Assembly (NCBI GenBank): GCA_026392035.1
Contig: JAPLCX010000029.1
Location: 1 to 35,185 of the forward strand
Reading direction: 5' to 3'
Length of the DNA: 35,185 nt
Source of the DNA: Candidatus Auribacterota bacterium
GTDB taxonomy: Bacteria > Auribacterota > Tritonobacteria > UBA1439
Position 1 is the stretch's first letter. The number at the start of each line of letters is the position of its first letter. A program made the translations under genes and the position numbers. The notes under the pieces are model-generated. The model saw only the letters and a list, made by a program, of their open reading frames with translations. It did no database searches and was not told the DNA's origin. Shown here one piece after another: positions 3,574-30,925 of this stretch.

Positions 3574-3581
3574 TCTATTTT

Positions 3582-3671
3582 CACCACGGAGACACGGAGT
3601 GTTAGGAAAAATATGTTGTTTATCTTTCACGTTTTGAACGCAGTCTCTGTGCCCTCCGTGCCTCCGTGGTG
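3582..3671. repeat. Inverted-repeat element, CACCACGGAG family, copy 1
   Basis: The left arm CACCACGGAGACACGGAG (3582-3599) matches the reverse complement of 3654-3671 in 17 of 18 positions. The element fills nearly the whole pheS-pheT gap and ends 11 bases before pheT; its right edge supplies GGTGAG, the only Shine-Dalgarno-like motif for pheT. A second copy lies at 18520-18603. Confidence 0.9.
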
Positions 3672-3682
3672 AGAGCAAAACT

Positions 3683-6079
3683 ATGAAAGTATCTTTTAAC
3701 TGGCTCAGAGAGTATGTTAATTGTCCCCTCAGCCCGGAAGAGCTGGCAGACCGCCTGACCATGCACGGTCTCGAGGTGGAAGCGGTCACCAGGCTGACGC
3801 CCGCGCTCAAGGGGATTGTCGTGGGAAGGGTCCTCAGCGTCGAGCCACACCCCCGCGCGGATCGGCTCTCGGTCTGCCGGGTGAGCGATGGAACGAGCGA
3901 GCTCACGATCGTGTGCGGGGCAAAAAACGTAACGGCGGGGGATGCCGCCCCCCTCGCGCGAGTGGGGGTTACGCTGCCCAACGGAACAACCATACGCCAG
4001 ACAGCGCTCCGGGGGATCGCTTCGGAGGGCATGCTCTGCTCTGAGAGAGAACTCGAGCTGGGCGAAGACGCCGAGGGGATCATGATCCTGGCGGCACAGT
4101 CAATGCCGGGCCAGGATCTCTCTGAAGCGCTCCAGCTCAATGACAGTATTCTCGATGTCAATGTGACCCCGAACCGTCCTGACTGTCTCAGTGTGGTCGG
4201 CGTGGCGCGCGAGGCCGCGGCTATCCTGAAAAAACCGCTCATGCTGCCCCGCTGCCGGGTGAAAGAGAAGGGGGCTCGAGCGGCTTCTCGCGCGCGGGTG
4301 AGCATCGAGGATGGCGGCCTTTGCCCGCGCTACTGCGCCCGTGTCGTCACAAATGTCAGTGTCGGGCCTTCTCCCTTCTGGCTGCGTAACAGGCTGGGGG
4401 CGGTGGGAGTGAGGACGATCAATCTGATTGTGGACGCGACAAATTACGTGCTCATGGAATGCGGGCAGCCGCTGCACGCGTTTGACCTCCAGAAGATCAA
4501 GGGAGGCTGCGTCTTCGTGCGGCAGGCGCGGCGTGGAGAGAAGATCACCACGATCGACGGCAGGGAGCGCGCGCTCGACGAGGGGATGCTCGTCATCGCC
4601 GATTCAAAGGCCCCCCTCGCGGTTGCGGGTATCATGGGAGGTCTCCACAGCGAGGTTGGCAAAGAGACACGCGAGCTCCTCCTCGAGAGCGCGTGCTTCA
4701 AACCGCAATCCATACGGCGCACCTCCCAGAGGCTTAATCTCTCCAGCGAGTCGTCATACAGGTTCGAGCGTGGGGTGGATTACCACGGCCTTGTCCCTGC
4801 GCTGGACAGGGCCGCACAGCTCATCTCTGCACTGGGTGCGGGTGATCCCTGCACGGGCGTCATCGATCGCCGATCGACAGCCTGGCGCGCGAGGAGAGTG
4901 AAGCTCCGCATCCCGAGGTTGAACGCCGTCCTCGGTGCGAGGTTGTCAAAAGCGAGGGTGCGGGCCGATCTTGAACGCCTGGGCATGGGGGTGAGAGAAC
5001 AGGGGAGAGTGGTGGTGGAGGTTGCGCCTCCCGCTTTTCGGGTTGACCTGTGCGGAGAGATCGACCTGGTCGAGGAAGTGGCCCGCATGGAAGGGTATGA
5101 CCGGATCATCGCGGTGCCGCCGGTCGGCGTCGTGCCGGCGGGAGGGGGCGACCCCCGCACCATGGGTCGGGAAAAGGTGAGAGATGCGCTCTGCTCACTC
5201 GGTTTTTCTGAGGCGATCTGCCTCAGCTTTATGGGGCTCGCTGAGATGGATCGGCTGATGTGGGGCAAGCATGAACCGCTCCGGCGGGCGGTGAGGCTCA
5301 GGAACCCGGTGAGCGATGAGTTTGCCTATCTGAGAACCAGCATGCTCCCGCCGCTCATGCGGTGCCTGTCGCTCAACGCGAATCGCGGCAACAGCGATGC
5401 GCAACTGTTCGAACTGGGCACGGTTTTTTCCCCGCGCGAGGGTGGAGCGCCCCCCCTCGAAATGGAGAAGCTCGCGCTCGCGGCAATGGGGCTGGCCGGA
5501 ATCCGATCGTGGTGCGCCCGGATGGCCGAGGTAGATTTTTTTTATCTTAAGGGAATGCTGGAAAATATGCTCACGGGAGCGGGCGCGGAGATCTCCGCAG
5601 CGCGTGCGTCGTTGCCGGGCTGCCATCCGGGCAGGTCGGCGACACTCAGTCGGAATGGCCTGCCATGGGGCTGGATCGGCGAGATCCATCCGCGCGTGGC
5701 GGAGGCGTACGGCATCAAAGCCCCTGTCATCTTCGCGGAGGTGGACCCGGCGCCCCTCTACACGGCACTCCTCGGGGAGAGGGTGTACCGACCGCTTCCG
5801 CGTTTCCCCGCCGTGAAAAGGGATATCGCGCTCGTCGCGGATGAACACGTCGAGGCAGCGGGGGTGATCGCGACCGTGAGGCGTGCCGTCCCGGGGCTCA
5901 TCGAAGCCGTCGAGCTCTTCGATCTGTTCAGGGGGCAGCAGATTCCCCCGGGCAAGAAGGGGCTCGCCGTCTCCGTCACGCTGCGCGCTCCCGAGGCGAC
6001 GCTGCGGGAGGAAGATATTGAAGCGGCGATGGAAAAAATCCGCGAGGCGCTGAGGGAGATGGGGTGCGAGATAAGATAA
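3683..6079 (+). CDS. pheT: Phenylalanyl-tRNA synthetase beta subunit
   Basis: 798 residues, full length for bacterial PheT. In order: the N-terminal start MKVSFNWLREYV, the EMAP-II-like tRNA-binding domain (about residues 40-155, with VEPHPRADRLSVCRV and RGIASEGMLCSERELEL), the B3/B4 editing domain (about 210-400, with DATNYVLMECGQPLHAFD and RTSQRLNLSSESSYRFERG), the B5 domain (about 405-475), the catalytic-like core (LRTSMLPPLM) and the C-terminal FDX-ACB domain (about 705-798, RPLPRFPAVKRDIALV). It edits Tyr-tRNA-Phe and positions tRNA. It starts 11 bases after a repeat element that provides GGTGAG 9 bases upstream. Confidence 0.97.
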   Translation: MKVSFNWLREYVNCPLSPEELADRLTMHGLEVEAVTRLTPALKGIVVGRVLSVEPHPRADRLSVCRVSDGTSELTIVCGAKNVTAGDAAPLARVGVTLPNGTTIRQTALRGIASEGMLCSERELELGEDAEGIMILAAQSMPGQDLSEALQLNDSILDVNVTPNRPDCLSVVGVAREAAAILKKPLMLPRCRVKEKGARAASRARVSIEDGGLCPRYCARVVTNVSVGPSPFWLRNRLGAVGVRTINLIVDATNYVLMECGQPLHAFDLQKIKGGCVFVRQARRGEKITTIDGRERALDEGMLVIADSKAPLAVAGIMGGLHSEVGKETRELLLESACFKPQSIRRTSQRLNLSSESSYRFERGVDYHGLVPALDRAAQLISALGAGDPCTGVIDRRSTAWRARRVKLRIPRLNAVLGARLSKARVRADLERLGMGVREQGRVVVEVAPPAFRVDLCGEIDLVEEVARMEGYDRIIAVPPVGVVPAGGGDPRTMGREKVRDALCSLGFSEAICLSFMGLAEMDRLMWGKHEPLRRAVRLRNPVSDEFAYLRTSMLPPLMRCLSLNANRGNSDAQLFELGTVFSPREGGAPPLEMEKLALAAMGLAGIRSWCARMAEVDFFYLKGMLENMLTGAGAEISAARASLPGCHPGRSATLSRNGLPWGWIGEIHPRVAEAYGIKAPVIFAEVDPAPLYTALLGERVYRPLPRFPAVKRDIALVADEHVEAAGVIATVRRAVPGLIEAVELFDLFRGQQIPPGKKGLAVSVTLRAPEATLREEDIEAAMEKIREALREMGCEIR

Positions 6080-6084
6080 CCACG

Positions 6085-6127
6085 GCCTAAAGTGTAAGGT
6101 ATAAGGCCCAACGTGCAAGGCATGAAG
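6085..6127. repeat. Repeat fragment shared with the xseA-xseB gap
   Basis: Most of this 49-base gap is repeat. The stretch 6100-6127 aligns with 12099-12127 (core TAAGGCC, ACGT, CAAGG in the same order). It also contains GGCCT...AGGCC as a small hairpin. The AAGG used as a ribosome site by rarA lies inside it. Confidence 0.55.
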
Positions 6128-6128
6128 C

Positions 6129-7481
6129 ATGGATCTATTTGATACTGCGGCACAGGACACAGCGCACGCGCCGCTCGCGGCGAGGATGCGTCCGAGAACG
6201 CTCGAGGAATTTGAGGGGCAAACACACATCCTCGGCAAAGGGAAACTCCTCTCCCGGGCGATCGAATCGGACCGTATCGGTTCCATCATCCTCTGGGGGC
6301 CGCCCGGCACAGGGAAAACCACGCTCGCGGAGGTCACCGCCAACGCGACGCACAGTTGTTTTGAGAGGATGAGCGCCGTCATGGCGAACGTGGATATCCT
6401 GCGAAGGGCCATCTACAGCGCCGAGAACCGACTGCGGGAGAGGGGAGAGAAGACCATCATTTTTATAGACGAGATCCATCGCTTCAACAAGGCGCAACAG
6501 GACGTCCTCCTCCCGCACGTCGAGAGGGCGACCATCTCCCTGATCGGTGCGACCACGCACAATCCGTGTTTCTACGTCAACGCCCCGCTGCTCTCGCGCT
6601 CGCTCCTCTTCGAGCTGCGACCACTGGGGAGGGAAGAGCTGCGCGTGATCATCGACCGCGCACTCGCCGACCCCGAGCGTGGGCTGGGAAAGACGTCGGT
6701 GATTGTTGATGATCCCGCCATGGAGCATATCCTCGCGATATCCGACGGCGACGCGCGCAGGGCGCTCAACGCGATTGAGCGGGCGGTGCTCACCACCCCC
6801 CCGGGCAAGGACGGCTCCGCTCACGTTACCCTCGGCGTGGCCGAGGACTCTGTGCAGAGCAAGGCGGTCGTCTACGACAGGGACGAGGATGGACATTACG
6901 ATACGATATCGGCGTTCATCAAGAGCATGCGCGGGTGCGACCCGGACGCGGCCCTCTACTGGATGGCGAAGATGATCCACGCGGGGGAGGACCCGCGATT
7001 CATCGCCAGGCGCATCATCATCTGCGCCGCTGAGGACGTGGGCAATGCCGACCCCCATGCCCTCCTCGTGGCGACGGCCGCGATGCAGGCCGTCGAGTTT
7101 GTCGGGATGCCCGAGGCGAGGATACCGCTGGCGCAGGCCGCCATCTACGTCGCCTGCGCCCCCAAGAGCAACGCCTCGTACAGCGGCATTGAAAAAGCCC
7201 TGGAGGGGGTCCGCACCCGCCCCACGATGGAGGTGCCCGACGCAATCAAGGGAACGGGCTATGCGGGCGCCGGGCGGCTCGGGCGCGGGAAGGGCTACAC
7301 GTACGCACATGGCCCCCAGAGTCTCACGGGCGCGCCGGACCTCACCCCTGAGCCCGTCTCCTTCTACAAACCCTGGGCGAGCGGATACGAGAGGGTGATC
7401 AAAAGAAGATTGGAGTTGTGGCGCAGGAAGGGGAAGGGCAGGGCTGAGGCCGAGGCGAATGCAGCAGGAAAGAGGCATTGA
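6129..7481 (+). CDS. rarA: Replication-associated recombination AAA+ ATPase RarA (MgsA)
   Basis: 450 residues, typical of RarA/MgsA, a clamp-loader-like AAA+ protein that acts at stalled replication forks. Visible are [14 protein letters not shown]-type N-terminus, Walker A (GPPGTGKTT, about residue 58), Walker B ([11 protein letters not shown]), sensor 1 (GATTHNP; the family usually has GATTENP), the arginine-finger region LLSRS, and sensor 2 ([11 protein letters not shown]). The C-terminal MgsA tetramerisation domain follows ([33 protein letters not shown]). AAGG about 8 bases upstream is the ribosome site. It overlaps the next gene by 23 bases. In many bacteria zapA occupies this spot between pheT and the cyclo-ligase gene; none is present here. 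Confidence 0.95.
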
Positions 7482-8082
7482 TGAAAAGGGCCGGATCCGG
7501 GCGGAGCTGTTGAAGAAGAGAGACAGCCTTCCGCCGGCCGAGCGCCGGCAGCTCAGCGAGCGGATCGCGAATGCGCTGAGGGGCCTTGACGAGTTCAGGA
7601 AGGCGCGGCGCATCATGTATTACGTGGCGGTGAGAGCTGAGGTGGAGACGGAGGAGCTGATACGGGGATGCCTCGCACGGGGAAAGAAGGTGAGCGTACC
7701 CTGCTGTGACCCCGCGAGCGGGCGCATCAGCGCGGCCGATATCAGGGATTTCGACCGTGACCTGGCTGCGGGATGCTACGGGATCCCCGAGCCCATCGGA
7801 GCGCGGAGAGAGACGGTCGCCGCGGCGGACATTGACCTCTTCATCGTCCCCGGCGTCGGCTTCGACTGGACGGGAGTGCGGCTGGGGTGGGGGAAAGGCT
7901 ACTACGATTCTTTTCTCGCCGCGGCTGACGCGCGCGCGGTCAAAATCGGCCTCGCGTACGAAGCGCAGTTGCTGCCGCTCATCCAACCCCGTAGCCGCGA
8001 TGTCGCCATGGACAAGATTGTCACCGAGGAGAGAGTGATCGATTGCAGGAAGATGCGGAGTTATATCAAACAGGCAAAATGA
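7459..8082 (+). CDS. 5-formyltetrahydrofolate cyclo-ligase
   Basis: 207 residues. Converts 5-formyl-THF plus ATP to 5,10-methenyl-THF, recycling folate. Family marks are the N-terminal helix IRAELLKKRDSLPPAER, the folate-region YVAVRAEVETEELI, and the nucleotide-binding signature GVGFDWTGVRLGWGKGYYD (about residues 132-150), normally G-x-G-x-G-Y-Y-D. The ATG lies inside rarA, giving a 23-base overlap and likely translational coupling. The last codons and the TGA fall in the first copy of the AAATGACAAA repeat, so the repeat provides its stop. Placement before rny and the ymdB-type gene is common in bacteria. Confidence 0.92.
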   Translation: MQQERGIDEKGRIRAELLKKRDSLPPAERRQLSERIANALRGLDEFRKARRIMYYVAVRAEVETEELIRGCLARGKKVSVPCCDPASGRISAADIRDFDRDLAAGCYGIPEPIGARRETVAAADIDLFIVPGVGFDWTGVRLGWGKGYYDSFLAAADARAVKIGLAYEAQLLPLIQPRSRDVAMDKIVTEERVIDCRKMRSYIKQAK

Positions 8083-8195
8083 CAAAATCCAAATGACAAA
8101 ATAAATCCAAGAGACAAAATTCAAACAGCAAAACCTCGGCATTTGTCATTTGGTATTTGTCATTTGTGACTTGTCATTTGGTATTTGTCATTTAA
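8076..8195. repeat. Inverted-repeat element, AAATGACAAA family, copy 1
   Basis: The left arm repeats AAATGACAAAATCC-like units from 8076; the right arm (about 8141-8195) repeats their complement, CATTTGTCATTTGG. The element spans the gap from the last codons of the cyclo-ligase to within 4 bases of the rny ribosome site. Copies 2 and 3 lie at 9791-9873 and 10677-10770. Confidence 0.9.
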
Positions 8196-8212
8196 TAAAG
8201 GGGGTGATGGGT

Positions 8213-9784
8213 ATGATCGCGTTCTTGAAAGAACAATTCCTTGCCCTGACCATCCTCGCCGCCGCGGCAGGAGCGTGCGCCGGTTACTTTGCCAGGCGCG
8301 TCATGGCTGACAAGAGGTTCTCGGATGCCGGTGCGCAGGCGAAGAAAATTCTCGATGATGCGGAGAGGGAGGCAAATAACAAGAAGAGGGAAGCGGAGAT
8401 ATACGCGAAGGACGAGCTGCACAAATCGCGCGCCGAGTTTGATCGTGAAACTAAGGACAGGCGCAAAGAGCTGACCGGCCTTGAGGCCCGCGTCGTGCAA
8501 AAAGAGGAGAACCTCGAGCGCAAGGTTGCCCTGCTGGAAAAGAAAGAGCAGACGCTCGCCAGGCTGGAGCGCGAGCGAGAGGCCCACGCGCAGGCCATGG
8601 AACAGAAACAGAAGGAGCTCGACGTCGTCCTGGAGGAGGAGAGGAAGCGGTTGCAGAAAGTGGCGGGGCTGAGCCGCGACGAGGCGAAGCAGCTGCTGCT
8701 CAACAAGCTCGAAGACGAAATCAGGCGCGACGCGGCGGCGATGGCGCGCCGCATCGAGGAGGAGGCAAAGGAAACTGCCGACAAACAGGCGAAGAAGATC
8801 ATCTCACTGGCGATCCAGCGGTCCGCGGCAGACCACGTTTCAGAGATGACCGTAACGAGCGTACCCCTCCCCAACGATGAGATGAAGGGCCGGATCATCG
8901 GACGCGAGGGACGGAACATCCGCGCCATCGAGGCGGCCACCGGGGTTGATGTCATCATTGACGACACGCCGGGCGCGGTGGCGCTCTCCAGCTTCGATCC
9001 GATACGCAAAGAGATCGCCCGGATCACTCTGGAGCGGCTGATCGCGGACGGCCGGATCCACCCCGCGCGGATCGAGGAGATCGTGGAGAAGGTGAAGAAT
9101 GAGATGGAGGACACCATCCGGGAGACCGGCAAGCAGGCCGCGTTTGATCTGGGCATCCACGACCTGCACCCCGAGCTCATCAGGCTGCTCGGACGGCTCA
9201 AGTTCAGGAGCAGTTACGGACAGAACGTGCTCCAGCATTCCAAAGAGGTGGCGCGCGCGATGGGGATCATGGCAGCCGAGCTCCAGCACGATATCAAGCT
9301 CGCCAAGCGTATCGGGATCCTCCATGATATCGGCAAGGCGGTTGACCATGAGGTGGAAGGGGCGCACGCGGTGATCGGGGCTGACATTGCGAAGAAATAC
9401 GGTGAGTCTCCCGAGGTCGTCCACGCGATCGCGGCGCACCACAATGACGTGGAGCCCACTTCGATCTACGCGGTGCTCGCCTCCGCAGGCGATGCGATAT
9501 CCGCGGCCAGGCCTGGGGCGCGGTCAGAAACGCTCGAGGCGTACATCAAGCGGCTGGAGAACCTGGAGAAAATCGCGATGGCGTTTCGGGGCGTCCACCA
9601 CGCCTATGCCATCCAGGCGGGGCGTGAAATCAGGGTCATAGTCGAACCGGATAAGATCGACGACGACCAGGCCGTGCTGACCGCGCGTGATATCACCAAG
9701 AAGATTCAGGATGAGCTTGAGTATCCCGGCCAGGTCAAGGTGGTGGTCGTCAGGGAAACGCGGGCCGTGGAGTACGCCAAATAA
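8213..9784 (+). CDS. rny: Ribonuclease Y
   Basis: 523 residues, standard for RNase Y, the membrane-anchored endonuclease that starts mRNA decay in bacteria lacking RNase E. It has one N-terminal membrane segment (about residues 6-24), a long charged coiled coil (about 30-200, [17 protein letters not shown] onward), a KH domain ([15 protein letters not shown]) and an HD domain ([25 protein letters not shown]) holding the metal site. The open frame extends to a TTG at 8150, but that stretch is repeat. AAGGGGGTGA (8198-8207) sits 8 bases before ATG 8213, which decides the start. Confidence 0.96.
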
Positions 9785-9790
9785 AAAAAC

Positions 9791-9873
9791 CAAATGACAA
9801 AATCCAAATGTCAAAACAAATCCAAATGACGAAATTCAAGTACCAATAGAACGGTATTTGTCATTTGTCATTC
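9791..9873. repeat. Inverted-repeat element, AAATGACAAA family, copy 2
   Basis: Same family as 8076-8195. The 64 bases 9791-9854 match the reverse complement of 10700-10763 at 61 positions, so copies 2 and 3 flank the ymdB-type gene in opposite orientation. The right edge lies just before its ribosome site. Short internal arms (CAAATGACAAA against TTTGTCATTTG) also allow a local hairpin. Confidence 0.9.
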
Positions 9874-9887
9874 ATGCAGGAGCACGC

Positions 9888-10679
9888 ATGATTACTATCC
9901 TGATGTGCGGCGATATCGTCGGAAAGCCGGGGAGAACTGCGGTGAGGGAACTGCTCCCCGTCCTGAAAAAACGGTACTCGGTTGACTGTGTCATCGCCAA
10001 CGCAGAGAACGCGGCCGGCGGGTCCGGCCTGACCCCCGACACGGTGAGCGAACTCATTTCCTCCGGAGTCCATGTGCTCACCTCGGGCGACCACATCTGG
10101 AAGAATAGAGCCGTGTACGAGATCATCGGGAGAGAGGAGCGGCTCCTGCGCCCCGCGAACTACCCCGTGGGGGTGCCGGGACGCGGGAGCGTGGTGATCA
10201 CCGTCGGGAGCGGGGTGCGGGTAGGGGTGATCAACCTGCTCGGCCGCATTTTCATGAAGCCGGCTGAATGCCCATTCGCGGTCGCGATGAGGGAGTGTGA
10301 CTCGATTCGAGCGGAGAGCCCCGTCATCATCGTTGATATCCACGCCGAGGCGACATCGGAAAAGATCGCCATGGGGCGTTATCTCGACGGAAAGGTGACC
10401 GCGGTGGCCGGCACGCACACGCACGTGCAGACTGCCGACGAGCAGATTCTCCCCGGCGGGACTGCGTACATCACCGACGTGGGAATGACCGGCCCCACTG
10501 TTTCAATTTTGGGGAGGGAGATCGAGCCGGTGGTCAGGCACTTTCTCACGCAGATGCCCGAGCGATTTGATGTGGCGAGTGAGGGAATCGAGTTCCAGGG
10601 CGTGCTCATACGCGCGGACGAGCATACCGGCAAAGCAGTGGGGATTGAGCGGATACGGGAGAAACTTGAAGACAAATAA
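9888..10679 (+). CDS. YmdB-type metallophosphoesterase (TIGR00282 family)
   Basis: 263 residues. The family hydrolyses cyclic nucleotides such as 2',3'-cAMP in vitro and in Bacillus influences biofilm decisions; there too it lies next to rny. Metal-site motifs are GDIVGKPGR (Asp9), NAENAAGG (Glu40, Asn41), SGDHIWK (Asp68, His69), DIHAEATSEK and GTHTHVQTAD. Position 68 is Asp, where Bacillus YmdB has the metal ligand Asn. GCAGGAG 7 bases before ATG 9888 fixes the start; upstream codons are repeat. The stop TAA also lies in a repeat, and inverted copies of one element bracket the gene. Confidence 0.92.
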   Translation: MITILMCGDIVGKPGRTAVRELLPVLKKRYSVDCVIANAENAAGGSGLTPDTVSELISSGVHVLTSGDHIWKNRAVYEIIGREERLLRPANYPVGVPGRGSVVITVGSGVRVGVINLLGRIFMKPAECPFAVAMRECDSIRAESPVIIVDIHAEATSEKIAMGRYLDGKVTAVAGTHTHVQTADEQILPGGTAYITDVGMTGPTVSILGREIEPVVRHFLTQMPERFDVASEGIEFQGVLIRADEHTGKAVGIERIREKLEDK

Positions 10680-10770
10680 CAAATACCAAATGACAAATGC
10701 CGTTCTATTGGTACTTGAATTTTGTCATTTGGATTTGTTTTGTCATTCGGATTTTGTCATTTGTCATTTT
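10677..10770. repeat. Inverted-repeat element, AAATGACAAA family, copy 3
   Basis: Begins within the final codons of the ymdB-type gene (GACAAATAACAAATACC includes its TAA) and ends 18 bases before the xseA start. The core 10700-10763 is the near-exact reverse complement of copy 2. Its ends carry CAAATGACAAAT and TTGTCATTTGTC, which can pair locally. Confidence 0.9.
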
Positions 10771-10787
10771 TAAGTAGGCGGCGTGCA

Positions 10788-12008: not shown

Positions 12009-12052
12009 GGTATGCGTTATACTAATCACAACCGACGATGTTCCATAAATGG

Positions 12053-12127
12053 CCACAGATGAGCACGGATAAACACAGATGAACATTGCGGCCGGAAGTT
12101 TAAGGCCACACGTACAAGGAAATGAGG
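12053..12127. repeat. Mixed repeat fragments before xseB
   Basis: Two pieces lie side by side. At 12053-12084 is a single arm of the CCACAGATNNACACRGAT family (hairpin copies at 19230-19304 and 22422-22518) with no obvious partner arm. At 12090-12127 is a GGCC...GGCC mini-palindrome followed by a segment matching 6100-6127. The ACTGTAAACTTTCAACC just beyond (about 12131-12147) resembles 23354-23371 before der. Confidence 0.6.
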
Positions 12128-12161
12128 TCACTGTAAACTTTCAACCGTAGTTGAGGTTCCC

Positions 12162-12497: not shown

Positions 12498-12587
12498 TCA
12501 GGGGTTTGATAAGTCCCGAAATAGCGGATAACAGGTCAAAACGTTCACCTGATGGGTGGAATGTAATCAGAAGTAATTCTCCCTGTA

Positions 12588-12655
12588 GGAGCTTGATCCT
12601 TCGGCTGAGTTTATACTGAGCGTAGCCGAAGTGCTCAGGACAAGTTTTATCAAGC
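12588..12655. repeat. Hairpin of two nested repeat families upstream of dxs
   Basis: Outer arms GCTTGAT (12591-12597) and ATCAAGC (12649-12655) enclose inner arms CTTCGGCT (12599-12606) and AGCCGAAG (12624-12631), all exact. The outer arm with its flank (GTAGGAGCTTGAT) is the same family as the palindrome before infC. The element occupies the gap where ispA is often found. Confidence 0.8.
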
Positions 12656-12748
12656 CCGTGGAATTCTGCCCCTTCTGGGACTATTAAGAAACGGTGAAAC
12701 TTCAGGTTGGCATTGATTCAAAAATTGATTGGGGAGCCTGTTGCCGCA

Positions 12749-14638: not shown

Positions 14639-14694
14639 GTGTTGAGAGCGCCATAGGTCGCCACGATAATCGACTGGTTCTGAAAAGCAGATCG

Positions 14695-15471: not shown

Positions 15472-16337
15472 AAACAATCGCGCTCATGGTCAACACACTT
15501 AAAAAAGACGCGGGCGCCGCGCTCGGCGCACTCGTCCCTTTTTTGAAGGGGAGAGGGGTTGCCGTGATCGCCGATCGAGAAACGGCAGCGCTCATCGGGG
15601 ATGCGAAGATCGGGAGGGAGGCGGAGGACTTGAGGTCCGAGGCTGAACTCCTGGTCGCGGTGGGTGGCGACGGGACGGTGCTCAAGGCCGCGCGGATGCT
15701 CGGAGACGCGCAAGTTCCCCTCGTGGGAATCAACCTTGGCGGGCTCGGCTTTCTCACCGCCACTACGCTCGTCGGCGCCAGGGAGCTTCTGGAAAAGGCC
15801 ATACGTGGCGATTTCAAGGCCGAAGAGAGGCTGCTCCTCAGGGTGGCGGTCAGGAGGAACGGGCGTGAGCGCTTCAGCCATGTGGTGCTCAATGACGCGG
15901 TGATCGCCAGGGGGACGCTGTCGAGGCTGATCGCCCTTGACACGTTTATCGATGACGAGTACCTCGTCACGTACAATTCAGACGGCCTGATTGTATCGAG
16001 CCCCACTGGTTCGACCGCCTATTCCCTCTCGGCCGGCGGGCCCCTTGTATCGCCTGATACAGATGCTATAATTATTGCGCCTATATGCCCTCACATGCTC
16101 ACGAACAGGCCGCTCATTGTTCCGGGCAGGAAGAAGGTGCGGATTGTGGTATCGGCGAGAGCACGGGACAGCACGCTGACCCTCGATGGACAGGTCAGGG
16201 AAATGCTCCAGGGCGGCGATGAGGTTGCTGTCGAGGGATGCGGCGCAAAACTGAGGCTGGTGGTCTCTGTCGAAAAGAGCTACTTCCAGCTTCTCAGGGA
16301 GAAGTTGCACTGGGGAGGCCGCGCGCTCCATGGCTAA
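15468..16337 (+). CDS. nadK: NAD kinase
   Basis: 289 residues. Phosphorylates NAD+ to NADP+. The signature GGDGTVLKAAR (about residues 64-74) supplies the catalytic Asp; the second motif NSDGLIVSSPTGSTAYSLSAGGP and the C-terminal beta domain (RPLIVPGRKKVRIVV, LTLDGQ) are intact. The start codon shares its last bases with the tlyA stop (ATGA), and the stop overlaps the following ferredoxin-subunit gene by 8 bases. tlyA-nadK is a familiar bacterial pair; the link to the oxidoreductase operon is less so. Confidence 0.95.
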   Translation: MKTIALMVNTLKKDAGAALGALVPFLKGRGVAVIADRETAALIGDAKIGREAEDLRSEAELLVAVGGDGTVLKAARMLGDAQVPLVGINLGGLGFLTATTLVGARELLEKAIRGDFKAEERLLLRVAVRRNGRERFSHVVLNDAVIARGTLSRLIALDTFIDDEYLVTYNSDGLIVSSPTGSTAYSLSAGGPLVSPDTDAIIIAPICPHMLTNRPLIVPGRKKVRIVVSARARDSTLTLDGQVREMLQGGDEVAVEGCGAKLRLVVSVEKSYFQLLREKLHWGGRALHG

Positions 16338-16533: not shown

Positions 16534-16535
16534 AG

Positions 16536-16643
16536 AAAGTTAAAAGTCAAAACGCAAAAGGCAAAAGTACGGTGCAAAGCTAAAATGTTTTTAACTTTTG
16601 AGTTTTGACATGTGGTTTTGACTTTTTACTTTTGATTTTTGCC
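16536..16643. repeat. Inverted-repeat element, AAAAGTCAAAAC family
   Basis: The left arm (16536-16567: AAAGTTAAAAGTCAAAACG and following) is complementary to the right arm (16588-16643: TTTTTAACTTTTGAG, GTTTTGAC, TTTTTGCC). It fills the gap between the ferredoxin and alpha-subunit genes, ending 9 bases before the latter's ATG, which has no visible Shine-Dalgarno sequence. Confidence 0.85.
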
Positions 16644-16652
16644 TTATCATTC

Positions 16653-17726: not shown

Positions 17727-17766
17727 GGGACAGCGCTAAAGAGATCGAGCTATCGATTGAGTAATT

Positions 17767-18513: not shown

Positions 18514-18519
18514 CTGTTT

Positions 18520-18603
18520 CACCACGGAGACACGGAGGGCGCAGAGAGATACCACGAGGAGTTTGATTCCGCTCCTCTCATTTGGATTCTTTTCTCCGTG
18601 GTG
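18520..18603. repeat. Inverted-repeat element, CACCACGGAG family, copy 2
   Basis: CACCACGGAG at 18520-18529 is the exact complement of CTCCGTGGTG at 18594-18603. The left side continues ACACGGAGGGCGCAGAGA, matching the complement of copy 1's right arm. Inside lies a second hairpin, GAGGAG (18556-18561) with CTCCTC (18572-18577). It fills the beta-gamma gap of the oxidoreductase operon. Confidence 0.88.
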
Positions 18604-18625
18604 ACAATAAACAAAGGATATTTAC

Positions 18626-19219: not shown

Positions 19220-19229
19220 AATAACAGAA

Positions 19230-19304
19230 CCGCAGATAAACACAGATGGACACAGATTGGTAAGAACGCCACGTGGTACTGTGTTTATTCGTGTTCATCC
19301 GTGG
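19230..19304. repeat. Inverted-repeat element, ACACRGAT family, copy 1
   Basis: The left arm (from 19230: CCGCAGATAAACACAGATGG) pairs imperfectly with the right arm at 19279-19304 (CTGTGTTTATTCGTG, then TTCATCCGTGG), matching at 19 of 26 positions. It lies between the gamma subunit and gltX, ending about 12-30 bases before the candidate gltX starts. Confidence 0.8.
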
Positions 19305-19333
19305 TTTATTTTTTAATGTGGATGACGAGTTCC

Positions 19334-20686: not shown

Positions 20687-22448
20687 TCCCATGAACACCC
20701 CCGATCATAACAACGGGAGAAATGCCCGGGGGCAGGCAGGGGTGCCCCCGAGAGATTTCATCCGGGAGATCGTCGCGGAGGACCTGAGAAGGTGCACGCA
20801 CGGGGGGCGGGTCGTGACACGGTTCCCGCCTGAGCCGAACGGCTGCCTGCACATCGGCCATGCGAAGTCGATCTGCCTCAACTTCGGCATCGCCTTGGAG
20901 AATGGGGGGAGATGCCATCTCCGTTTCGACGACACCAACCCCGCCAAAGAGGAGGTTGAGTACGTCGAGTCGATCATGCAGGATGTCCGGTGGCTCGGCT
21001 TCGACTGGGGGAAGCGCCTCTACTACGCCTCCGACTACTTCGAGAGGCTTTATGAGTACGCAGTGCAGCTCATACAGCGGGGGAAAGCCTACGTGGACAG
21101 CCTGAGCACGGAGGAGATACGTGAATACCGCGGAACGCTCACCAGGCCTGGGAAGGAGAGCCCCTTCCGCGCGCGCACGGTGGAGGAAAATCTCGACCTG
21201 TTCGAGCGCATGCGGCGGGGAGAGTTCTCCGACGGCGCGCATGTGCTCCGGGCAAAGATAGATATGGCCTCTCCCAATCTGAACATGAGAGACCCCGTGC
21301 TCTACCGCATACGCCACGTGGCGCACCAAAGGACAGGGGACACGTGGTGCATCTACCCCATGTACGACTTCGCGCATTGCCTCTCGGATTCAATCGAGGG
21401 GATCACGCACTCCATCTGCACCCTCGAGTTCGAGGATCACAGACCGCTCTATGATTGGATTCTTGACGCGCTGTCCGTTGCGCACCACCCGCAGCAAATC
21501 GAGTTCGCCCGGCTCAATCTGAGCCACACGGTGCTGAGCAAGCGGAAGCTCCTGGAGCTGGTGGAGGGGGGATGTGTTTCCGCATGGGACGACCCACGGA
21601 TGCCCACTCTCTCAGGGCTTCGCAGACGCGGCTACACCCCCGAGGCGATCAGGGACTTCTGCGATAGGATCGGCGTTGCGAAGACCGACAGCCAGGTGGA
21701 AATCGCACTTCTCGAGCACTGCCTGCGGGAAGATCTGAATAAGCGGGCGCCGCGGGTGATGGCGGTGCTCCGCCCGCTTCGCGTGGTCATCGAGAACTAT
21801 CCCGATGGCCGCGTGGAGGAACTCGAGGCGGTCAACAACCCCGAGGATCCGTCCCTGGGGACGAGGAGGGTACCGTTTTCGCGGGTTCTCTACATCGAGC
21901 GGGACGATTTCCGCGAGCACCCGCCGAAGAAGTACCACCGCTTGGCGCCCGGCCGCGAGGTGCGGCTGAGGTACGGCTATTTCATCACCTGCACGGGATT
22001 TGGGAAGGATGAGCGGACCGGAGAGGTGACGGAATTGCGGTGCACCTATGACCCGGCCACCCGGGGAGGGCACGCCCCCGACGGCCGCAAGGTCAAGGGG
22101 ACGATACACTGGCTTTCGGCGGCGCACGCCATCGGGGCGGAGGTGCGTCTTTATGACCACCTATTCACAAAGTCTAATCCCGGGGACGCTGAGGAAGGTG
22201 CCGATTACAGGACATACCTGAATTCTGCCTCGTGTGAAAAACTCAGCAGATGCTTCGCCGAGCCGGGCATGGCCGGGGCGTCGCCGGGCGCTCAGTTCCA
22301 GTTTGAGCGATTGGGCTATTTCTGCGTCGATCCGGATTCTACCCGCGGACACCTGGTGTTCAATCGGTCAGTGGCGCTGCGCGACACCTGGAGAAAGATC
22401 GAAGAGGCGGAAAAAAGTCAGCCACGGATTGACACGGATAATCACTGA
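20679..22448 (+). CDS. glnS: Glutaminyl-tRNA synthetase
   Basis: 589 residues. Attaches Gln directly to tRNA-Gln, so the cell need not rely only on the amidotransferase route. GlnRS-specific marks are [40 protein letters not shown], the DPVLYRI and [10 protein letters not shown] segment, [14 protein letters not shown] and the KMSKS equivalent VLSKRKL; the C-terminal beta-barrel anticodon domains follow. The ATG lies inside the end of gltX. The last eight residues (PRIDTDNH) and the TGA are read from an intergenic repeat, so the natural C-terminus has been replaced or extended. Bacterial glnS is generally viewed as acquired from eukaryotes. Confidence 0.95.
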
Positions 22449-22518
22449 TAAATACAGAAAAATATTTTAAAAAAGGTTTTATCGATGAATATCCGTAATA
22501 ATCCGTGAAGATCCGTGG
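22422..22518. repeat. Inverted-repeat element, ACACRGAT family, copy 2
   Basis: CCACGGATTGACACGGAT at the left pairs with ATCCGTGAAGATCCGTGG at the right (CCACGGAT and CACGGAT blocks exact), around an AT-rich middle. The left arm overlaps the glnS coding end by 27 bases. Related to 19230-19304 and the half copy at 12053-12084. Confidence 0.87.
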
Positions 22519-22568
22519 TAAAAAAGGTTCGGCTCAACTTTTTCGGGTTTTCACCAGGGAGGGAACGG

Positions 22569-23123: not shown

Positions 23124-23176
23124 TGATACCGCGCGTTTCATCAATCCGGATCCGTTCTGTGTGGGTGCGGTACATT

Positions 23177-23315
23177 CTCCTCCCCCCTTGAGGGGGAGGA
23201 TTAAGGTGGGGGGTACGGCAGTTTCTAGTTGCGGGTTTCCAGTAACTCGCAACCAGGAACTCGAAAGTGCAGTTTACACCCCCACCCTCACCCTCCCCCT
23301 TCGCAGGGGGAGGGA
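23177..23315. repeat. Tripartite GC-rich inverted-repeat element before der
   Basis: Arm 1 (23177-23214, with CCTCCCCCCTTGAGGGGGAGG) and arm 2 (23278-23315, with CCCTCCCCCTT and GGGGGAGGG) are reverse complements of each other, and each also folds on itself. Between them is another hairpin, GTTGCGGGTT (23228-23237) with AACTCGCAAC (23244-23253), 9 of 10 paired. A further repeat fragment (TTTAAACTTTACACTTTCAA, about 23352-23371) lies just before der. Confidence 0.85.
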
Positions 23316-23385
23316 ATATAAGATTTATCCACACAGAATGGAAGAGAACCTTTAAACTTTACACTTTCAACCTTGGACTGTTGCT

Positions 23386-24705
23386 ATGCACACCGTCGCC
23401 ATTGTGGGCCGCCCGAACGTCGGGAAGTCAGCCATTTTTAATCGACTCGCGGGGAAAAGGATAGCAATTGTCGATTCAACCTACGGCCTCACTCGTGACC
23501 GGATTGCCGCATCCGTGTCGCACGGGGGGAGGCAATTCACGATCATTGATACCGGCGGGATTGATTTCGATGCCTCTGACAACGTGCGCGAGATGGCAAA
23601 ACGGCAGACCCAGCTCGCCATCTCGCAGGCCGACACGGTGCTGCTGGTCACCGACGCAATAGACGGGCCTGTCCCCCTCGACAGTGAAATCGCCGCCACG
23701 CTTCGGAGCGCGGGGAAGAAGGTCATCGTGGCAGTCAATAAAGCGGATAACGAGGCGCTGGAGTCCGCGGCCTCAAGCTTCCACCGCCTCGGGTTCCCCG
23801 ATCTCTTAGCGGTATCCGCAACGCATGGCCTGGGCATTGGCGCGCTGATGGATGCCCTCGCCGCGCAGATTATGGGGGAGGGGAAGAATGAGCCCTCCGG
23901 GACATTGAAGATCGCGATCGTCGGCAGGCCGAATGTCGGAAAATCCTCGTACGTGAACAGAATTCTGCGCGAAGAGCGGATGATCGTCGATGAGTCTCCC
24001 GGCACCACGAGGGATTCGGTGGACATAGAGGTCTCGAGGAGCGGGCGCAGCGTCACGCTGATCGATACCGCGGGCGTGCGGCGTGAGGGCTCGATCAAAG
24101 AGCCGGCTGAATTCTTCAGCCTCTCGCGGACCCGCGGGAGCATCCGGCGCAGCGATCTCGCGCTCATGTTGATAGACGCCACTGAAGGAGAAGGAGTGAG
24201 CATGCAGGACGAGAAGCTGGCCAGGTATATCCACGATCAGGGGAAGGGGTGCGTCCTCGGCGTGAATAAGTGGGATCTGGCTCGTGAGACGGACACGCGC
24301 CGGTATCGCGAGTACGTCTGGCAGAAGATGCGCTTTTTTAACTACGTCCCGCTCGTCTTCATGTCGGCGAAATCGGGGCAGGGGATGGAGCGGTCACTGG
24401 ACACCATATTCTACGTCTGCGAGCAGATGGGGAAGCGGATCGGCACTCCCGTGCTCAACAGGGTGCTCCACAACATATGGGAGCGCAACGAACCGCCGGC
24501 CCACTCGGGGAAGCGGTGCAAGTTTTATTACACGGCTCAGGTCGGCATAGCACCGCCGACATTTCAACTCTTCGTGAACGAAAGAAAGCTGGTGGGTCGC
24601 ACCTACGTGAACTACCTGGTGAATGAGCTGCGGCGCGCCTTCGGTTTTGAGGGGACTCCCCTCCGCCTGGAGTTCAAAAACCGCCGGAGAGAGGGACGCG
24701 GGTGA
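23386..24705 (+). CDS. der: Ribosome-assembly GTPase Der (EngA)
   Basis: 439 residues with two GTPase domains in tandem and a C-terminal KH-like domain, the fixed architecture of Der, required for 50S maturation. Domain 1: GRPNVGKSAIFNRLAG, DSTYGLTRD, DTGG, NKAD. Domain 2 (from about residue 175): GRPNVGKSSYVNRIL, DESPGTTRDSVD, DTAGVRREG, NKWDLA. The KH region includes PVLNRVLHNIWERNEPP and ends FEGTPLRLEFKNRRREGRG. ATG 23386 gives the standard first strand but has no clear Shine-Dalgarno sequence, the preceding bases being repeat. Confidence 0.97.
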   Translation: MHTVAIVGRPNVGKSAIFNRLAGKRIAIVDSTYGLTRDRIAASVSHGGRQFTIIDTGGIDFDASDNVREMAKRQTQLAISQADTVLLVTDAIDGPVPLDSEIAATLRSAGKKVIVAVNKADNEALESAASSFHRLGFPDLLAVSATHGLGIGALMDALAAQIMGEGKNEPSGTLKIAIVGRPNVGKSSYVNRILREERMIVDESPGTTRDSVDIEVSRSGRSVTLIDTAGVRREGSIKEPAEFFSLSRTRGSIRRSDLALMLIDATEGEGVSMQDEKLARYIHDQGKGCVLGVNKWDLARETDTRRYREYVWQKMRFFNYVPLVFMSAKSGQGMERSLDTIFYVCEQMGKRIGTPVLNRVLHNIWERNEPPAHSGKRCKFYYTAQVGIAPPTFQLFVNERKLVGRTYVNYLVNELRRAFGFEGTPLRLEFKNRRREGRG

Positions 24706-24880
24706 GCTTTGAGCCCCCGCCCCACCAATTATCTGGCAACGTCAGTATTTTGGTGTCGGTACGCCTGACGTCCAGTCGCTGCTCTTGTTTGTATCCCATC
24801 CTGCAGGATTGCGTCTTAAACTTAGCCAACATACACAGTAGCTCATTTTTAAAATTACTAGTCCTGGCTTGAGGATTTTG

Positions 24881-24886
24881 TATAAT
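24881..24886 (+). promoter_or_regulatory. Possible -10 element for plsY-gpsA
   Basis: A perfect TATAAT lies 20 bases before the plsY start, in an AT-rich stretch after a 200-base gap with no repeat element. No convincing -35 hexamer stands at 16-18 bases. It would give a leader of only about 12 bases ending in the GGGAGGAG ribosome site. Confidence 0.35.
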
Positions 24887-24905
24887 ATGCGCGGGAGGAG
24901 CTGGA

Positions 24906-25538
24906 ATGATTTCACTGTTTGTCAGAATATTTATAGTGGCCGGCGCGGCGTATCTCGTGGGTTCCATTCCTACGGCCTATATCATGGGGCGCATCGTCAG
25001 GGGGATTGACATACGGGACTACGGGAGCGGGAATGTCGGAGCGACCAATGTGATGCGCGTCCTCGGTTCCGCTGCGGGCATTGCAACGCTGGGAATTGAC
25101 GTGCTGAAAGGCTATCTGGTGGTCGCGCTCCTCCCGACGTGGGCCTGTGGCGATTCAGCGCATCTCCCGTTCTGGCAGATTCTCTCGTGCGTCGCGGTCA
25201 TCGCGGGCCATACATGGATGATCTTTCTCAGATTCGAGGGGGGCAAAGGGGTCGCCGCCACCGCCGGCGCGTTCCTGGCCCTGGCGCCCCTGGCGTCTCT
25301 TTCCGCGATAGGGCTATGGGGTATAGTTGTCGCACTCACGCGCTATGTCTCGCTCGGGTCAATTGTCGCGGGTCTATCCCTGCCTGTTTTCATGCTGCTT
25401 TTTCACAAGCCGATGGCCTATTTCTGGTTTTCGCTCTTCCTGGCGCTCGCCCTGACTTTGAAGCACCGCGGTAATCTGAAGAGGCTGATCGCGGGCACCG
25501 AGCGGAAGATCGGGCAGGCTGAGAGACTGGACAGATGA
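24906..25538 (+). CDS. plsY: Glycerol-3-phosphate acyltransferase PlsY
   Basis: 210 residues, an integral-membrane enzyme that acylates glycerol-3-phosphate from acyl phosphate, starting phospholipid synthesis. All three PlsY motifs are seen: GSIPTAYIMGRIVRGIDIR with DYGSGNVGATNVMR, GHTWMIFLRFEGGKGVA, and KHRGNLKRL near the C-terminus. About five to six membrane segments lie between them. GGGAGGAG about 7 bases upstream supports the start. The stop overlaps the gpsA ATG (ATGA), consistent with a coupled pair consuming the product of GpsA. Confidence 0.95.
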   Translation: MISLFVRIFIVAGAAYLVGSIPTAYIMGRIVRGIDIRDYGSGNVGATNVMRVLGSAAGIATLGIDVLKGYLVVALLPTWACGDSAHLPFWQILSCVAVIAGHTWMIFLRFEGGKGVAATAGAFLALAPLASLSAIGLWGIVVALTRYVSLGSIVAGLSLPVFMLLFHKPMAYFWFSLFLALALTLKHRGNLKRLIAGTERKIGQAERLDR

Positions 25539-26575
25539 ACAAACGCGCTGAATCTGGGATGCCGCGGGTTGCGGTTCTGGGCGATGGAGGATGGGGGACT
25601 ACCCTTGCCATCCTCCTCCACAGAAAGGGCGTGGGCGTTACCCTCTGGGGGGCGTTCCCGGAGTATGTCGAGTTCCTCAGGAGACGGAGGATCAATAAGA
25701 AATTCTTGCCCGGCGTGGCGATTCCTCGCGGCCTTCGCATCACCGCCCGGCTCGAAGAGGCGGTCGATGACGCGGGGGTGATCATTGCCGCGGTCCCCTC
25801 ACACCACATGCGGCGGATATGCCGCAGGGTGGGGGCACTCCTCTCCCGACAGAGAAACAATCGCTTCCCGCTCATCATAAGCGGATCGAAAGGGATTGAG
25901 ATCGCCACACTGATGAGGATGTCGCAAGTCATCAGAGAGGAGATCCATGACGTTCGCGTCGCTGCGCTCTCCGGCCCGAGCCACGCAGAAGAAGTTGTCT
26001 GTGGAAGCCCCACGACAGTGGTCGTCGCGGCGCCCGATGAACAGACCGCCATGGAAGCCCAGCGCCTTCTCATGACCGAGCGCTTCAGGGTGTATACGAA
26101 TCCCGACCTCATCGGCGTCGAGATCGGCGGCGCCATTAAGAACGTGATCGCCATCGCCGCGGGCGCGTGTGACGGCCTTGGATTCGGCGACAATGCGAAG
26201 GCGGCCCTCATCACGAGAGGGATAGTGGAAATCACCCGCCTCGGGGCCGCCATGGGAGCGAAGGCAAGCACCTTCTGGGGACTCGCGGGAATCGGCGATC
26301 TGATCACCACCTGTGTCAGCCGCTACGGCCGGAATCGCAAGGTGGGGGAGATGATTGCGAGGGGTAAGAAATTAAAACAGATTCTCGCGAGCATGGAGAT
26401 GGTTGCCGAAGGCATTCTCACCACAAAGGCTGCCCGCAAACTCTCGCTGCGGCACCAGGTGGAGATGCCGATCACCGACCAGGTATACGCGGTGCTGTAC
26501 CGCGGAAAGGACCCGGGAACGGCGGTGCGCGAACTCATGATGAGAAGCCCAAAAGCGGAGATGCACAACGCATAA
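25535..26575 (+). CDS. gpsA: NAD(P)H-dependent glycerol-3-phosphate dehydrogenase
   Basis: 346 residues. Reduces dihydroxyacetone phosphate to sn-glycerol-3-phosphate, the substrate of PlsY upstream. Rossmann motif VAVLGDGGWGTTLAILL (about residues 12-28), KGIE, the SGPSHAEEV loop, the catalytic Lys region EIGGAIKNVIAIAAG, DNAKAALITRGIVEITRLG and SRYGRNRKVGE are intact. About eight extra residues precede the usual start, because the ATG is fused to the plsY stop. An internal ATG at residue 9 would give a more usual N-terminus, but the coupling favours the first. Confidence 0.95.
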   Translation: MNKRAESGMPRVAVLGDGGWGTTLAILLHRKGVGVTLWGAFPEYVEFLRRRRINKKFLPGVAIPRGLRITARLEEAVDDAGVIIAAVPSHHMRRICRRVGALLSRQRNNRFPLIISGSKGIEIATLMRMSQVIREEIHDVRVAALSGPSHAEEVVCGSPTTVVVAAPDEQTAMEAQRLLMTERFRVYTNPDLIGVEIGGAIKNVIAIAAGACDGLGFGDNAKAALITRGIVEITRLGAAMGAKASTFWGLAGIGDLITTCVSRYGRNRKVGEMIARGKKLKQILASMEMVAEGILTTKAARKLSLRHQVEMPITDQVYAVLYRGKDPGTAVRELMMRSPKAEMHNA

Positions 26576-26581
26576 TAAAAT

Positions 26582-26711
26582 AGAAACCCGAAATCCTAAA
26601 TCCTAAACAAACACAAAACCCAAATGCTCAAAACCAAATTCACTCTGTTTCGTAAGTTTGGATTTTGTATTTTGGATTTATTTAGAGTTTCGAGTTTAGG
26701 GTTTAGAATTT
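26582..26711. repeat. Inverted-repeat element, AAACCCTAAATCC family
   Basis: The left arm (from 26582: AGAAACCCGAAATCC, CTAAATCCTAAAC and on) complements the right arm (about 26655-26711: GGATTTTGTATTTTGG, GTTTAGGGTTTAG). The whole 130-base stretch could fold as one long imperfect hairpin and fills the gap from just after gpsA to 31 bases before the next gene. Confidence 0.87.
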
Positions 26712-26741
26712 CTTTGTTTCAGAGGAGGATGAGGACGTCAA

Positions 26742-30888: not shown

Positions 30889-30925
30889 TTACTGCGGCAA
30901 CAACGGTTACTCGTTTCTAGTGCGG

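Follow-up and report, generated by a model that had tools for sequence, protein, structure and literature searches.

Intervening sequences (IVS) of ribosomal RNA (rRNA) exist with and without an S23 open reading frame (ORF), and the short tandemly repeated repetitive (STRR) sequences of cyanobacteria are heptameric intergenic repeats. In Coxiella and Leptospira, the complementary borders of IVS with an S23 ORF form a stem, their distribution is sporadic, and they have been called selfish or parasitic; RNase III cleaves stems of this kind, and S23 forms a homopentameric ring (passages of PMC4990558). Five chains are also present in the solved relative 2gsc. Published heptamer repeats include GGGAATC of Xanthomonas and GGGGA(T/C)T of Nostoc (excerpts of PMC4692102), TAACTGA of Beggiatoaceae (excerpts of PMC4679880), and heptanucleotide sets of Geobacter metallireducens (excerpts of PMC2700814), and the excerpts of PMC4692102 describe heptamer repeats as generally not associated with mobile elements. 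Here, we report on the intergenic hairpins of a 35,185-nucleotide (nt) window, which is one whole contig (JAPLCX010000029.1, C29) of the 122-contig, 2.8-Mb draft genome of a Candidatus Auribacterota bacterium (G000). Most of these hairpins are probably gene-less (non-autonomous) copies of two sister kinds of small mobile element, one with a gene for an S23/four-helix-bundle protein (class S) and the other with a gene for a GxxExxY protein (class G). To our knowledge, neither is a known transposase.

Results

Intergenic Hairpins of the Window

Thirteen gaps of at least 60 nt lie between pheS and the gene starting near 26757, and 11 of them are those in which an earlier note on this sequence had reported inverted repeats. 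That observation held. RNA folding, with 200 dinucleotide shuffles as the reference, placed 10 of the 11 listed hairpins far beyond the shuffles (z −3.5 to −7.9, 0/200 shuffles as good), the exception being hairpin 12588 (z −1.58, 15/200 shuffles as good). A stricter ungapped inverted-repeat test was passed by six of the 11 on their own (3581, 8077, 10671, 16536, 23191, and 26590). The two hairpin-less gaps were 12009–12161, with one CACAGAT-type array only (fold z 0.02), and 24706–24905, where inverted-repeat scans found none (RNA folding was not applied).

The own-genome sample comprised the window and 19 further stretches, 370 kb of the 2.8 Mb, picked at matches to a single family. Of its 208 gaps, 70 (about a third) contained an array or an inverted repeat, and many of these were in operons of essential genes. 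With two gaps left out (one N run, one long tandem array), the 206 clean gaps held 47 strong inverted repeats compared to 2, 0, 0, 0, and 0 in five dinucleotide shuffles. Coding sequence held four in 298 genes (294 kb). The repeats are thus neither single copies nor equally frequent inside genes, the two outcomes that the note had set against its own reading, and the whole-genome count that it had called for returned multicopy families with 26 to 205 pattern matches each.

Arms Built from Short Repeated Units

Autocorrelation of the gaps (at least 20 of 30 positions matching) gave lag 7 in 35 gaps, lag 14 in 18, and lag 10 in eight, compared to 0, 0, and 0 in one shuffle. These peaks indicate that the supposedly unrelated families share one build, in which a short unit is repeated and then followed by its inverse. 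The description of the families as unrelated was not upheld, and the arms fall into two classes of short-unit array. Heptads make up the class S arms (AAATGAC/AAAATCC, AAAGTTA/AAAGTCA, and AAATCCT/AAACTCG), and class G arms consist of units such as CACGGAG, CACAGAT, and CACGGAT with linkers of 1–4 nt. Pattern matches in the 2.8-Mb genome, some of which overlap inside single arrays, numbered 61 for CACGGAGNCACGGAG (reversed control 0), 201 for CACGGATNNNCACGGAT (reversed control 0), 205 for ACACAGATNNACACAGAT (reversed control 26), 43 for the AAATGAC pair (reversed control 0), and 26 for the AAAAGTC type (reversed control 4). The centres between the arms vary among many copies of one arm family, and some genomes have a common centre.

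Arrays beside S23 genes numbered 113 in 154 flanks compared to 23 in 770 shuffled flanks. Forty-one of the 113 spanned 29–33 nt, a length that equals four 7-nt steps plus a core and thus corresponds to five cores; the match of five unit cores to the S23 pentamer is suggestive only. Phase-specific conservation in the heptads was modest, with 32 of 43 informative arrays exceeding the scattered expectation.

Two Gene Classes Bracketed by Matching Arms

Five relatives of the same family or class (G001–G004 and G006; gene identity ~38–88%) were used to read orthologous gaps. In G006, two such gaps (536 and 515 nt) contained an S23-like ORF with heptad arms on both sides, which led to the gene classes. 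S23/four-helix bundle (PF05635) gave nine matches in G000 and was present in 24 of 39 genomes, and GxxExxY (PF13366/TIGR04256) gave nine matches at eight places in G000 and was present in 22 of the 39. TIGR02436 was the NCBIfam name returned for all three S23 proteins submitted, and genes inside the elements were named four helix bundle or GxxExxY.

Merging duplicates left 48 S23 and 41 GxxExxY loci, and the S23 set became 47 when L251 was removed for a flank that was too short; among 20 fetched GxxExxY stretches, L326–L328 were left unread (split or fragmentary genes) and L333 was excluded (short flank). The flanks paired as inverted arms at 37/47 S23 and 35/41 GxxExxY loci compared to 4/100 control genes. 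When flanks were swapped between loci, pairing fell to 1.6% of 902 trials for S23 and 7.9% of 671 trials for GxxExxY. CRCNRAN pairs stood on both sides of the gene at 42/71 GxxExxY, 1/76 S23, and 1/149 control loci, and 7-nt arrays stood on either side at 55/76 S23 versus 3/71 GxxExxY loci. Arm likeness also climbed with protein likeness across genomes (r 0.28 for 37 S23 loci and r 0.45 for 35 GxxExxY loci; 0/500 label permutations each), a test restricted to loci with an arm score of at least 16 and to pairs from different genomes. This correlation indicates that arm and gene travel as a unit, and it fits recognition of the arms by the protein without proving it.

The arms of the window were then compared with the 34 flanks of 17 own-genome coding elements (nine S23 and eight GxxExxY), using 60 shuffles. 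Nine of the 11 listed hairpins matched with at least one arm better than every shuffle, each hairpin within one class. Specifically, the A-rich hairpins matched S23 elements (L268, L269, L270, and L272), and the CACNGAN hairpins matched GxxExxY elements (L314, L317, and L321). The family diversity in these nine hairpins is explained by the two arm/gene classes.

Element genes lay on the host strand in 28 of 29 cases in co-directional gaps of G000, G001, and G006 (three loci were set aside, two because they lay in convergent gaps and one for lack of a called neighbour), so the element gene is probably read from the operon transcript. Hairpins and arrays themselves were found in gaps of all three strand classes. 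GxxExxY is predicted to be a PD-(D/E)XK nuclease, with D63 kept in 64/64 proteins, E73 in 61/64, K75 in 64/64, and Q87 in 62/64; the retained D...ExK signature makes nicking at the arms plausible.

Filled and Empty Sites

Orthologous gaps in the five relatives mostly held other arrays or nothing. The rny|ymdB gap, for instance, contained AAATGAC heptads in the window, the GTAAGCA type in G001, CGCGGATNTT in G003, GCGTACG in G006, and 4 nt in G002. Among Nostoc plasmids with genes A, B, and C in a row (stretches mostly 90–95% identical), the A|B gap measured 3 nt in pC052_A, pC052_B, p057_H, pNsp_b, and pNsp_c; in pNsp_a and pC052_D it was filled by an S23 element of 420 nt whose arms are TCAGGAG, in pNPM1 by a longer S23 element, and in p057_A and Halotia by other small ORFs. 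A target duplication of up to 5 nt is possible at this site. The B|C gap held an S23 element with different arms in pNsp_c only, among nine plasmids compared. In pNPM1, a 182-nt gene-less hairpin of the TCAGGAG-type arm family splits the S23 gene of the A|B element; the 420 nt around it differ from pC052_D by seven mismatches, and the target duplication is 0–1 nt.

Three states of the traM|hypothetical gap were observed: empty (p057_A and p057_K), with an S23 element (pC052_D), and with a gene-less hairpin of like arms (pNsp_c; best local match 38 nt). An S23 element separates cas10 and cmr3 in Picosynechococcus PCC 7003, where PCC 7002 has 12 nt, and another lies between ribonucleotide reductase genes of Nostoc edaphicum pNe_5, a site without the element in Calothrix NIES-4105. 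In these comparisons, entire class S elements, as well as gene-less hairpins, have been gained or lost.

Spread Across Bacteria

The palindromic CACGGAG pattern was found in at least 117 stretches of a GTDB set. By record title, about eight phyla were represented among the matches listed (80 titles), with Chloroflexi, Acidobacteria, Planctomycetota, Bacteroidota, alpha-, gamma-, and 'delta'-proteobacteria, Myxococcales, Verrucomicrobiales, Pontiella, and Latescibacteria named. Most of these records are metagenome-assembled genomes, in which mis-binning is possible, and Pontiella sulfatireligans F21 is a named type strain. GxxExxY was present in 23 and S23 in 16 of the 24 CACGGAG-bearing genomes searched. 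Thirty loci per class were taken from other phyla (29 for S23, as the flank of L410 was too short), and inverted arms were present at 26/29 S23 loci (swapped flanks 64/812) and 23/30 GxxExxY loci (swapped flanks 133/870).

Plasmids gave 38 matches, and 16 regions in named bacteria were read for arms (11 S23 and five GxxExxY). With 230-nt flanks, 10 of the 11 S23 copies scored at least 16 (Calothrix scored 15); those passing were from Nostoc (three), Geminocystis, Pseudanabaena, Gemmatirosa, Stanieria, Anabaena, Trichormus, and Picosynechococcus. Three of the five GxxExxY copies passed (Bernardetia, Bacteroides finegoldii, and Gemmatirosa), the Gemmatirosa match being not clearly an array. In Pseudanabaena (L337), the two gene-adjoining arrays have the same orientation, with the inverted array more distant on the upstream side; in Anabaena 90 (L414), the annotated cas4 start contains the downstream array; and in Trichormus (L415), the downstream arm overlaps the gene end.

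CACGGAG hairpins with like 12-nt flanks were also seen in bins of two phyla (L072 and L085 in Bacteroidota KLAP56; L084 in Thermoanaerobaculia MAG.385), which represents either recent transfer or contaminated bins. In L075, L099, L107, L126, L129, and others (Planctomycetaceae D1_Bin_8 and RYN_439), a CACGGAG hairpin sits inside a longer element that has outer ends resembling GTGTTTGATGAATC/GATTCATCAAACAC and is amplified in one genome.

Individual Hairpins and Other Features of the Window

All called genes of the window are on the + strand. According to Pfam, the block runs pheS, pheT, MgsA-like AAA ATPase, 5-formyl-THF cyclo-ligase, rny, ymdB, xseA, xseB, dxs, TlyA-like methyltransferase, nadK, three 2-oxoacid:ferredoxin oxidoreductase subunits, gltX, glnS, pgsA, der, plsY, and gpsA. 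We assigned gene names from the Pfam families, and the small gene at 16330 was named 'ferredoxin' without a Pfam search. The start of rny is likely 8213 (gap at 8083), as relatives align from there. The only Rfam family found in the window was tRNA.

Five ORF-less hairpins have class S arms. That at 8068–8195 (+ strand; folate cyclo-ligase|rny gap; AAATGAC/AAAATCC heptads; z −5.3) has its match in the flanks of S23 gene L270 of G000. Two AAATGAC hairpins stand either side of ymdB, at 9783–9872 (+ strand; rny|ymdB gap; z −5.4; matching S23 L269) and at 10671–10769 (− strand; ymdB|xseA gap; z −5.6; matching S23 L270); their 86-nt alignment, centre included, is near-identical in opposite orientation. 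The hairpin at 16536–16632 (+ strand; ferredoxin|porA gap; AAAGTTA/AAAGTCA; z −3.5) matches both flanks of S23 gene L268, with scores of 27 and 35 compared to a shuffle maximum of 20.5. The last, at 26580–26712 (+ strand; gap between gpsA and the next gene; AAATCCT/AAACTCG; z −4.5), matches the S23 flank L272 with a score of 34.5 (shuffle maximum 17).

Class G arms are found in four ORF-less hairpins and one single array, all on the + strand. The CACGGAG hairpin at 3581–3672 (pheS|pheT gap; z −6.1) has arms that are 95% complementary and, with 0/60 shuffles reaching its score, matches the sequence on either side of GxxExxY gene L314 of the same genome, as does the left arm of the CACGGAG hairpin at 18518–18606 (porB|porG gap; z −4.4; 0/60), of which the right arm is weak (11/60 shuffles as good). 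These two differ in their centres (3600–3653 and 18538–18590, respectively). At 19225–19312 (porG|gltX gap; CACAGATAAA; z −4.9), the left arm matches L321 (0/60) and the right arm is weak (4/60 shuffles as good), and the hairpin at 22418–22522 (glnS|pgsA gap; CACGGATTGA; z −6.4) matches the flanks of GxxExxY gene L317. The single array at 12050–12085 (xseA|xseB gap; CACAGATGAG/CACGGATAAA) matches the GxxExxY flank L321 (0/60 shuffles); a second arm was not found in this gap, and it has no hairpin (z 0.02).

The two remaining features are also on the + strand. The CCTTCGGCT...AGCCGAAG palindrome at 12580–12665 (xseB|dxs gap; z −1.6) is a separate family that matches 0/17 own-genome coding elements. 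One further own-genome copy of this family (CCTTCGGCT...CTCAGGACAAG) lies downstream of the Y1 gene in L205, with no S23 or GxxExxY link. At 23171–23320 (pgsA|der gap; z −7.9), a C/G-rich outer hairpin encloses a nested class S hairpin (CTAGTTG...), of which the inner arm matches the S23 flank L266 (14.5 compared to a shuffle maximum of 13.0) and the outer arms match no coding element. The composite as a whole covers 23124–23385, with C/G-rich hairpins and the nested heptad hairpin between outer ends that resemble TTCTGTGTGGGT.../ACCCACACAGAA; its frame reappears with another inner hairpin in a different gap, xseB|dxs, of G001 (L225). Short arrays at 6085 and 23345 had no match among the own-genome coding elements, and an array similar to them flanks an S23 gene in G001 (L279).

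A GCAACAA/TTTCTAG-type stretch follows tRNA-like sequence at 30889–30925 and in L266, L279, and L281, as if one class S family preferred the 3' sides of tRNAs. Seven direct repeats of ~120 nt each at the window end (34149–34947) probably encode a repeat-propeller protein. Y1 genes (L205–L224; 19 loci counted, with L210, a broken gene, and L220 left out) are mostly bracketed by GGGGTCA-type inverted repeats, and like short repeats occur in L026 (17312–17395 and 18010–18087) and L020 (2455–2526); this is a second, separate system that resembles miniature inverted-repeat transposable elements (MITEs). Elsewhere in the sample, a regular array with a palindromic TCCCCACACGCGTGGGGA every 61 nt (L019, 12728–14148) is probably a CRISPR array, and a perfect 94-nt inverted repeat with a 74-nt loop (L014, 1189–1450) could be either the remnant of an insertion sequence or an artefact of assembly.

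Discussion

Sequence comparison establishes that the elements have a two-class architecture found across phyla, that class S sites can be filled or empty, that gene-less copies have arms in common with the coding elements, and that the target duplication was 0–1 nt in one clean case. A full-length element consists of an arm, one gene, and the inverted arm, ~0.4–0.6 kb in total, placed between two operon genes and usually on the operon strand; in class S, the S23/four-helix-bundle protein is bracketed by arrays of 7-nt units, and in class G, the GxxExxY protein by arrays of CRCNRAN units with 1–4-nt linkers. Such an element would be transcribed with its host operon, and its arms would form an RNA hairpin that RNase III could cut, as in rRNA IVS, which would render an intergenic insertion harmless. 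Each protein may recognize the repeated unit of its own arms, with S23 potentially contacting about five unit cores through a five-fold ring, and may also move gene-less copies in trans. A guess, which we regard as somewhat unlikely, is that insertion proceeds via nicking or breakage and hairpin-templated copying, not via a classical transposase. RVT_1 gave no match in G000 or G006, and the ends of the transposases associated with repetitive extragenic palindromic (REP) sequences (REP-associated tyrosine transposases, RAYTs) differ from the hairpin arms.

Several observations weigh against the two-class mobile element reading. Movement is read from sequence comparison, the nuclease activity of GxxExxY is a prediction, and the filled and empty sites cover class S only. 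The comparison of orthologous gaps that the note had proposed mostly returned different arrays or none, as described above, and did not do so throughout: two gaps of G001 contain array types also seen in the window, namely ymdB|xseA, with an AAATGAC-like stretch at its end beside other heptads, and porG|gltX, with single CACAGAT units around other heptads. Arms were unmatched at the threshold at 10/47 S23 and 6/41 GxxExxY loci, and at 3/29 and 7/30, respectively, in other phyla. With narrow flanks, only 7/11 plasmid S23 copies pass; a plasmid GxxExxY copy in Fusobacteria is without arms and the Treponema copy is weak; and three plasmid S23 copies (L334, L339, and L417) oppose both neighbours. 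A 7-nt array was near 30/149 control genes, which we attribute to gene-less copies being so common, and swapped class G flanks pair in 8–15% of trials because class G arms resemble one another. The arm–protein correlation could reflect shared descent of a unit instead of recognition, and the match of five cores to a pentamer depends on a length mode (41/113 arrays of 29–33 nt). Finally, hairpin 12588 and the outer arms of 23171 match none of the 17 own-genome coding elements.

The note had also offered selection for a hairpin between genes as the source of the shared shape. Hairpins kept as mRNA processing, stability, or termination sites, with their likeness to element arms secondary, would agree with strong RNA folds and a location mostly between co-directional genes. 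As the primary reason, however, such selection is improbable, given that most orthologous gaps contain another array or only a few nt, as at rny|ymdB in G002, that presence and absence are clean among closely related plasmids, that one hairpin is inside a gene, and that gaps of all three strand classes bear hairpins. The hairpin may still make an insertion tolerable. Less probable again is that the heptad arrays are ordinary slippage products turned palindromic by template switching, with S23 and GxxExxY genes landing there by chance. Excerpts of PMC4692102 attribute heptamer over-representation to polymerase slippage as a hypothesis, and array length is variable, but the protein family cleanly divides the two arm types, arms within a locus are far more alike than arms between loci, and whole 420-nt elements are cleanly present or absent.

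On a par with slippage, and thus very improbable, are retro-elements for which a resident reverse transcriptase would do the copying via RNA, assisted by S23 in an Avd-like role. Homology between S23 and Avd has been described (excerpts of PMC10053308), one of three S23 proteins gave an NCBIfam Avd match below cut-off, and element genes are mostly on the host strand; an RVT_1 match was found in 13 of 39 genomes, yet it was absent in the own genome (nine S23 matches) and in G006 (15 S23 matches), drafts that may miss some. We consider REP/REPIN-like elements with Y1 (RAYT) transposases as their movers extremely unlikely. Y1_Tnp matches number 11 in the genome, but 18/19 Y1 genes have terminal inverted repeats of their own, mostly GGGGTCA-like and unlike the hairpins, and a heptad array within 160 nt was present at 1/19; RAYT/Y1 transposases were rejected as movers on account of these other ends.

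The mobile elements described here, with their gene-less copies, have counterparts among known systems. Class S resembles S23-bearing IVS in the S23-family gene inside and in complementary borders that form a stem (37/47 and 26/29 loci). Unlike those IVS, which lie in rRNA helices, the elements here are between protein genes, have tandem-unit arms, and include a second gene class. None of the 20 S23 loci scanned had an rRNA location (Rfam, gathering score; tRNAs only), so class S is not filed as IVS proper, and it is probably kin to S23-bearing IVS. Class G is an IVS-like architecture with another protein and other arms.

The MITE-like elements that the note had considered largely survive. They are multicopy, occur in operon gaps, and have relatives gained or lost between closely related plasmids, but they are not several unrelated kinds, since two arm classes are tied to two genes. 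Like MITEs, the hairpins are short and ORF-less, have inverted ends, occur in many copies, and have ends in common with a coding, putatively autonomous element; unlike MITEs, that coding element is without a known transposase, and centres differ between many copies. The target duplication is 0–1 nt in the clean case and may be up to 5 nt at the Nostoc A|B site. REP/REPIN sequences with RAYTs are likewise intergenic palindromes between co-directional genes (excerpts of PMC3733652), whereas RAYT genes here bear other ends. Published heptameric repeats share the 7-nt tandem units and the intergenic location, often near starts or in inverted pairs, whereas here cyanobacterial plasmid heptads bracket S23 genes; the terms S23 and 'four helix' are absent from the main text of PMC4692102 and PMC4679880. 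The class S protein is a four-helix protein homologous to Avd of diversity-generating retroelements, although, unlike Avd systems, the elements read have no reverse transcriptase gene inside. Searches of the openly licensed literature did not find four CACGGAG arm strings, and two irrelevant papers contained two or more of six other arm strings; among the matches listed, none linked S23 or GxxExxY to repeats or described class G.

A broader reading is possible, which we put forward tentatively and hold with less than even confidence. S23/four-helix-bundle and GxxExxY proteins may be the mobility factors of a new category of transposable element, whose array ends are recognized by a multimer (in the case of S23, a pentameric ring that sits on five unit cores), with end sequence drifting while unit spacing stays fixed. 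They would move themselves and many gene-less copies without a known transposase, integrase, or resident reverse transcriptase, and rRNA IVS and bacterial heptamer repeats would be special cases. The two-class elements offer one explanation for palindromes that had appeared 'unrelated', and two protein families of unknown function gain a testable role, with arms named for binding and cutting assays. If the explanation extends that far, it would also account for the heptamer repeats described independently in cyanobacteria, Xanthomonas, Beggiatoaceae, and Geobacter, and rRNA IVS would no longer be a curiosity but one special case of an element that is widespread.

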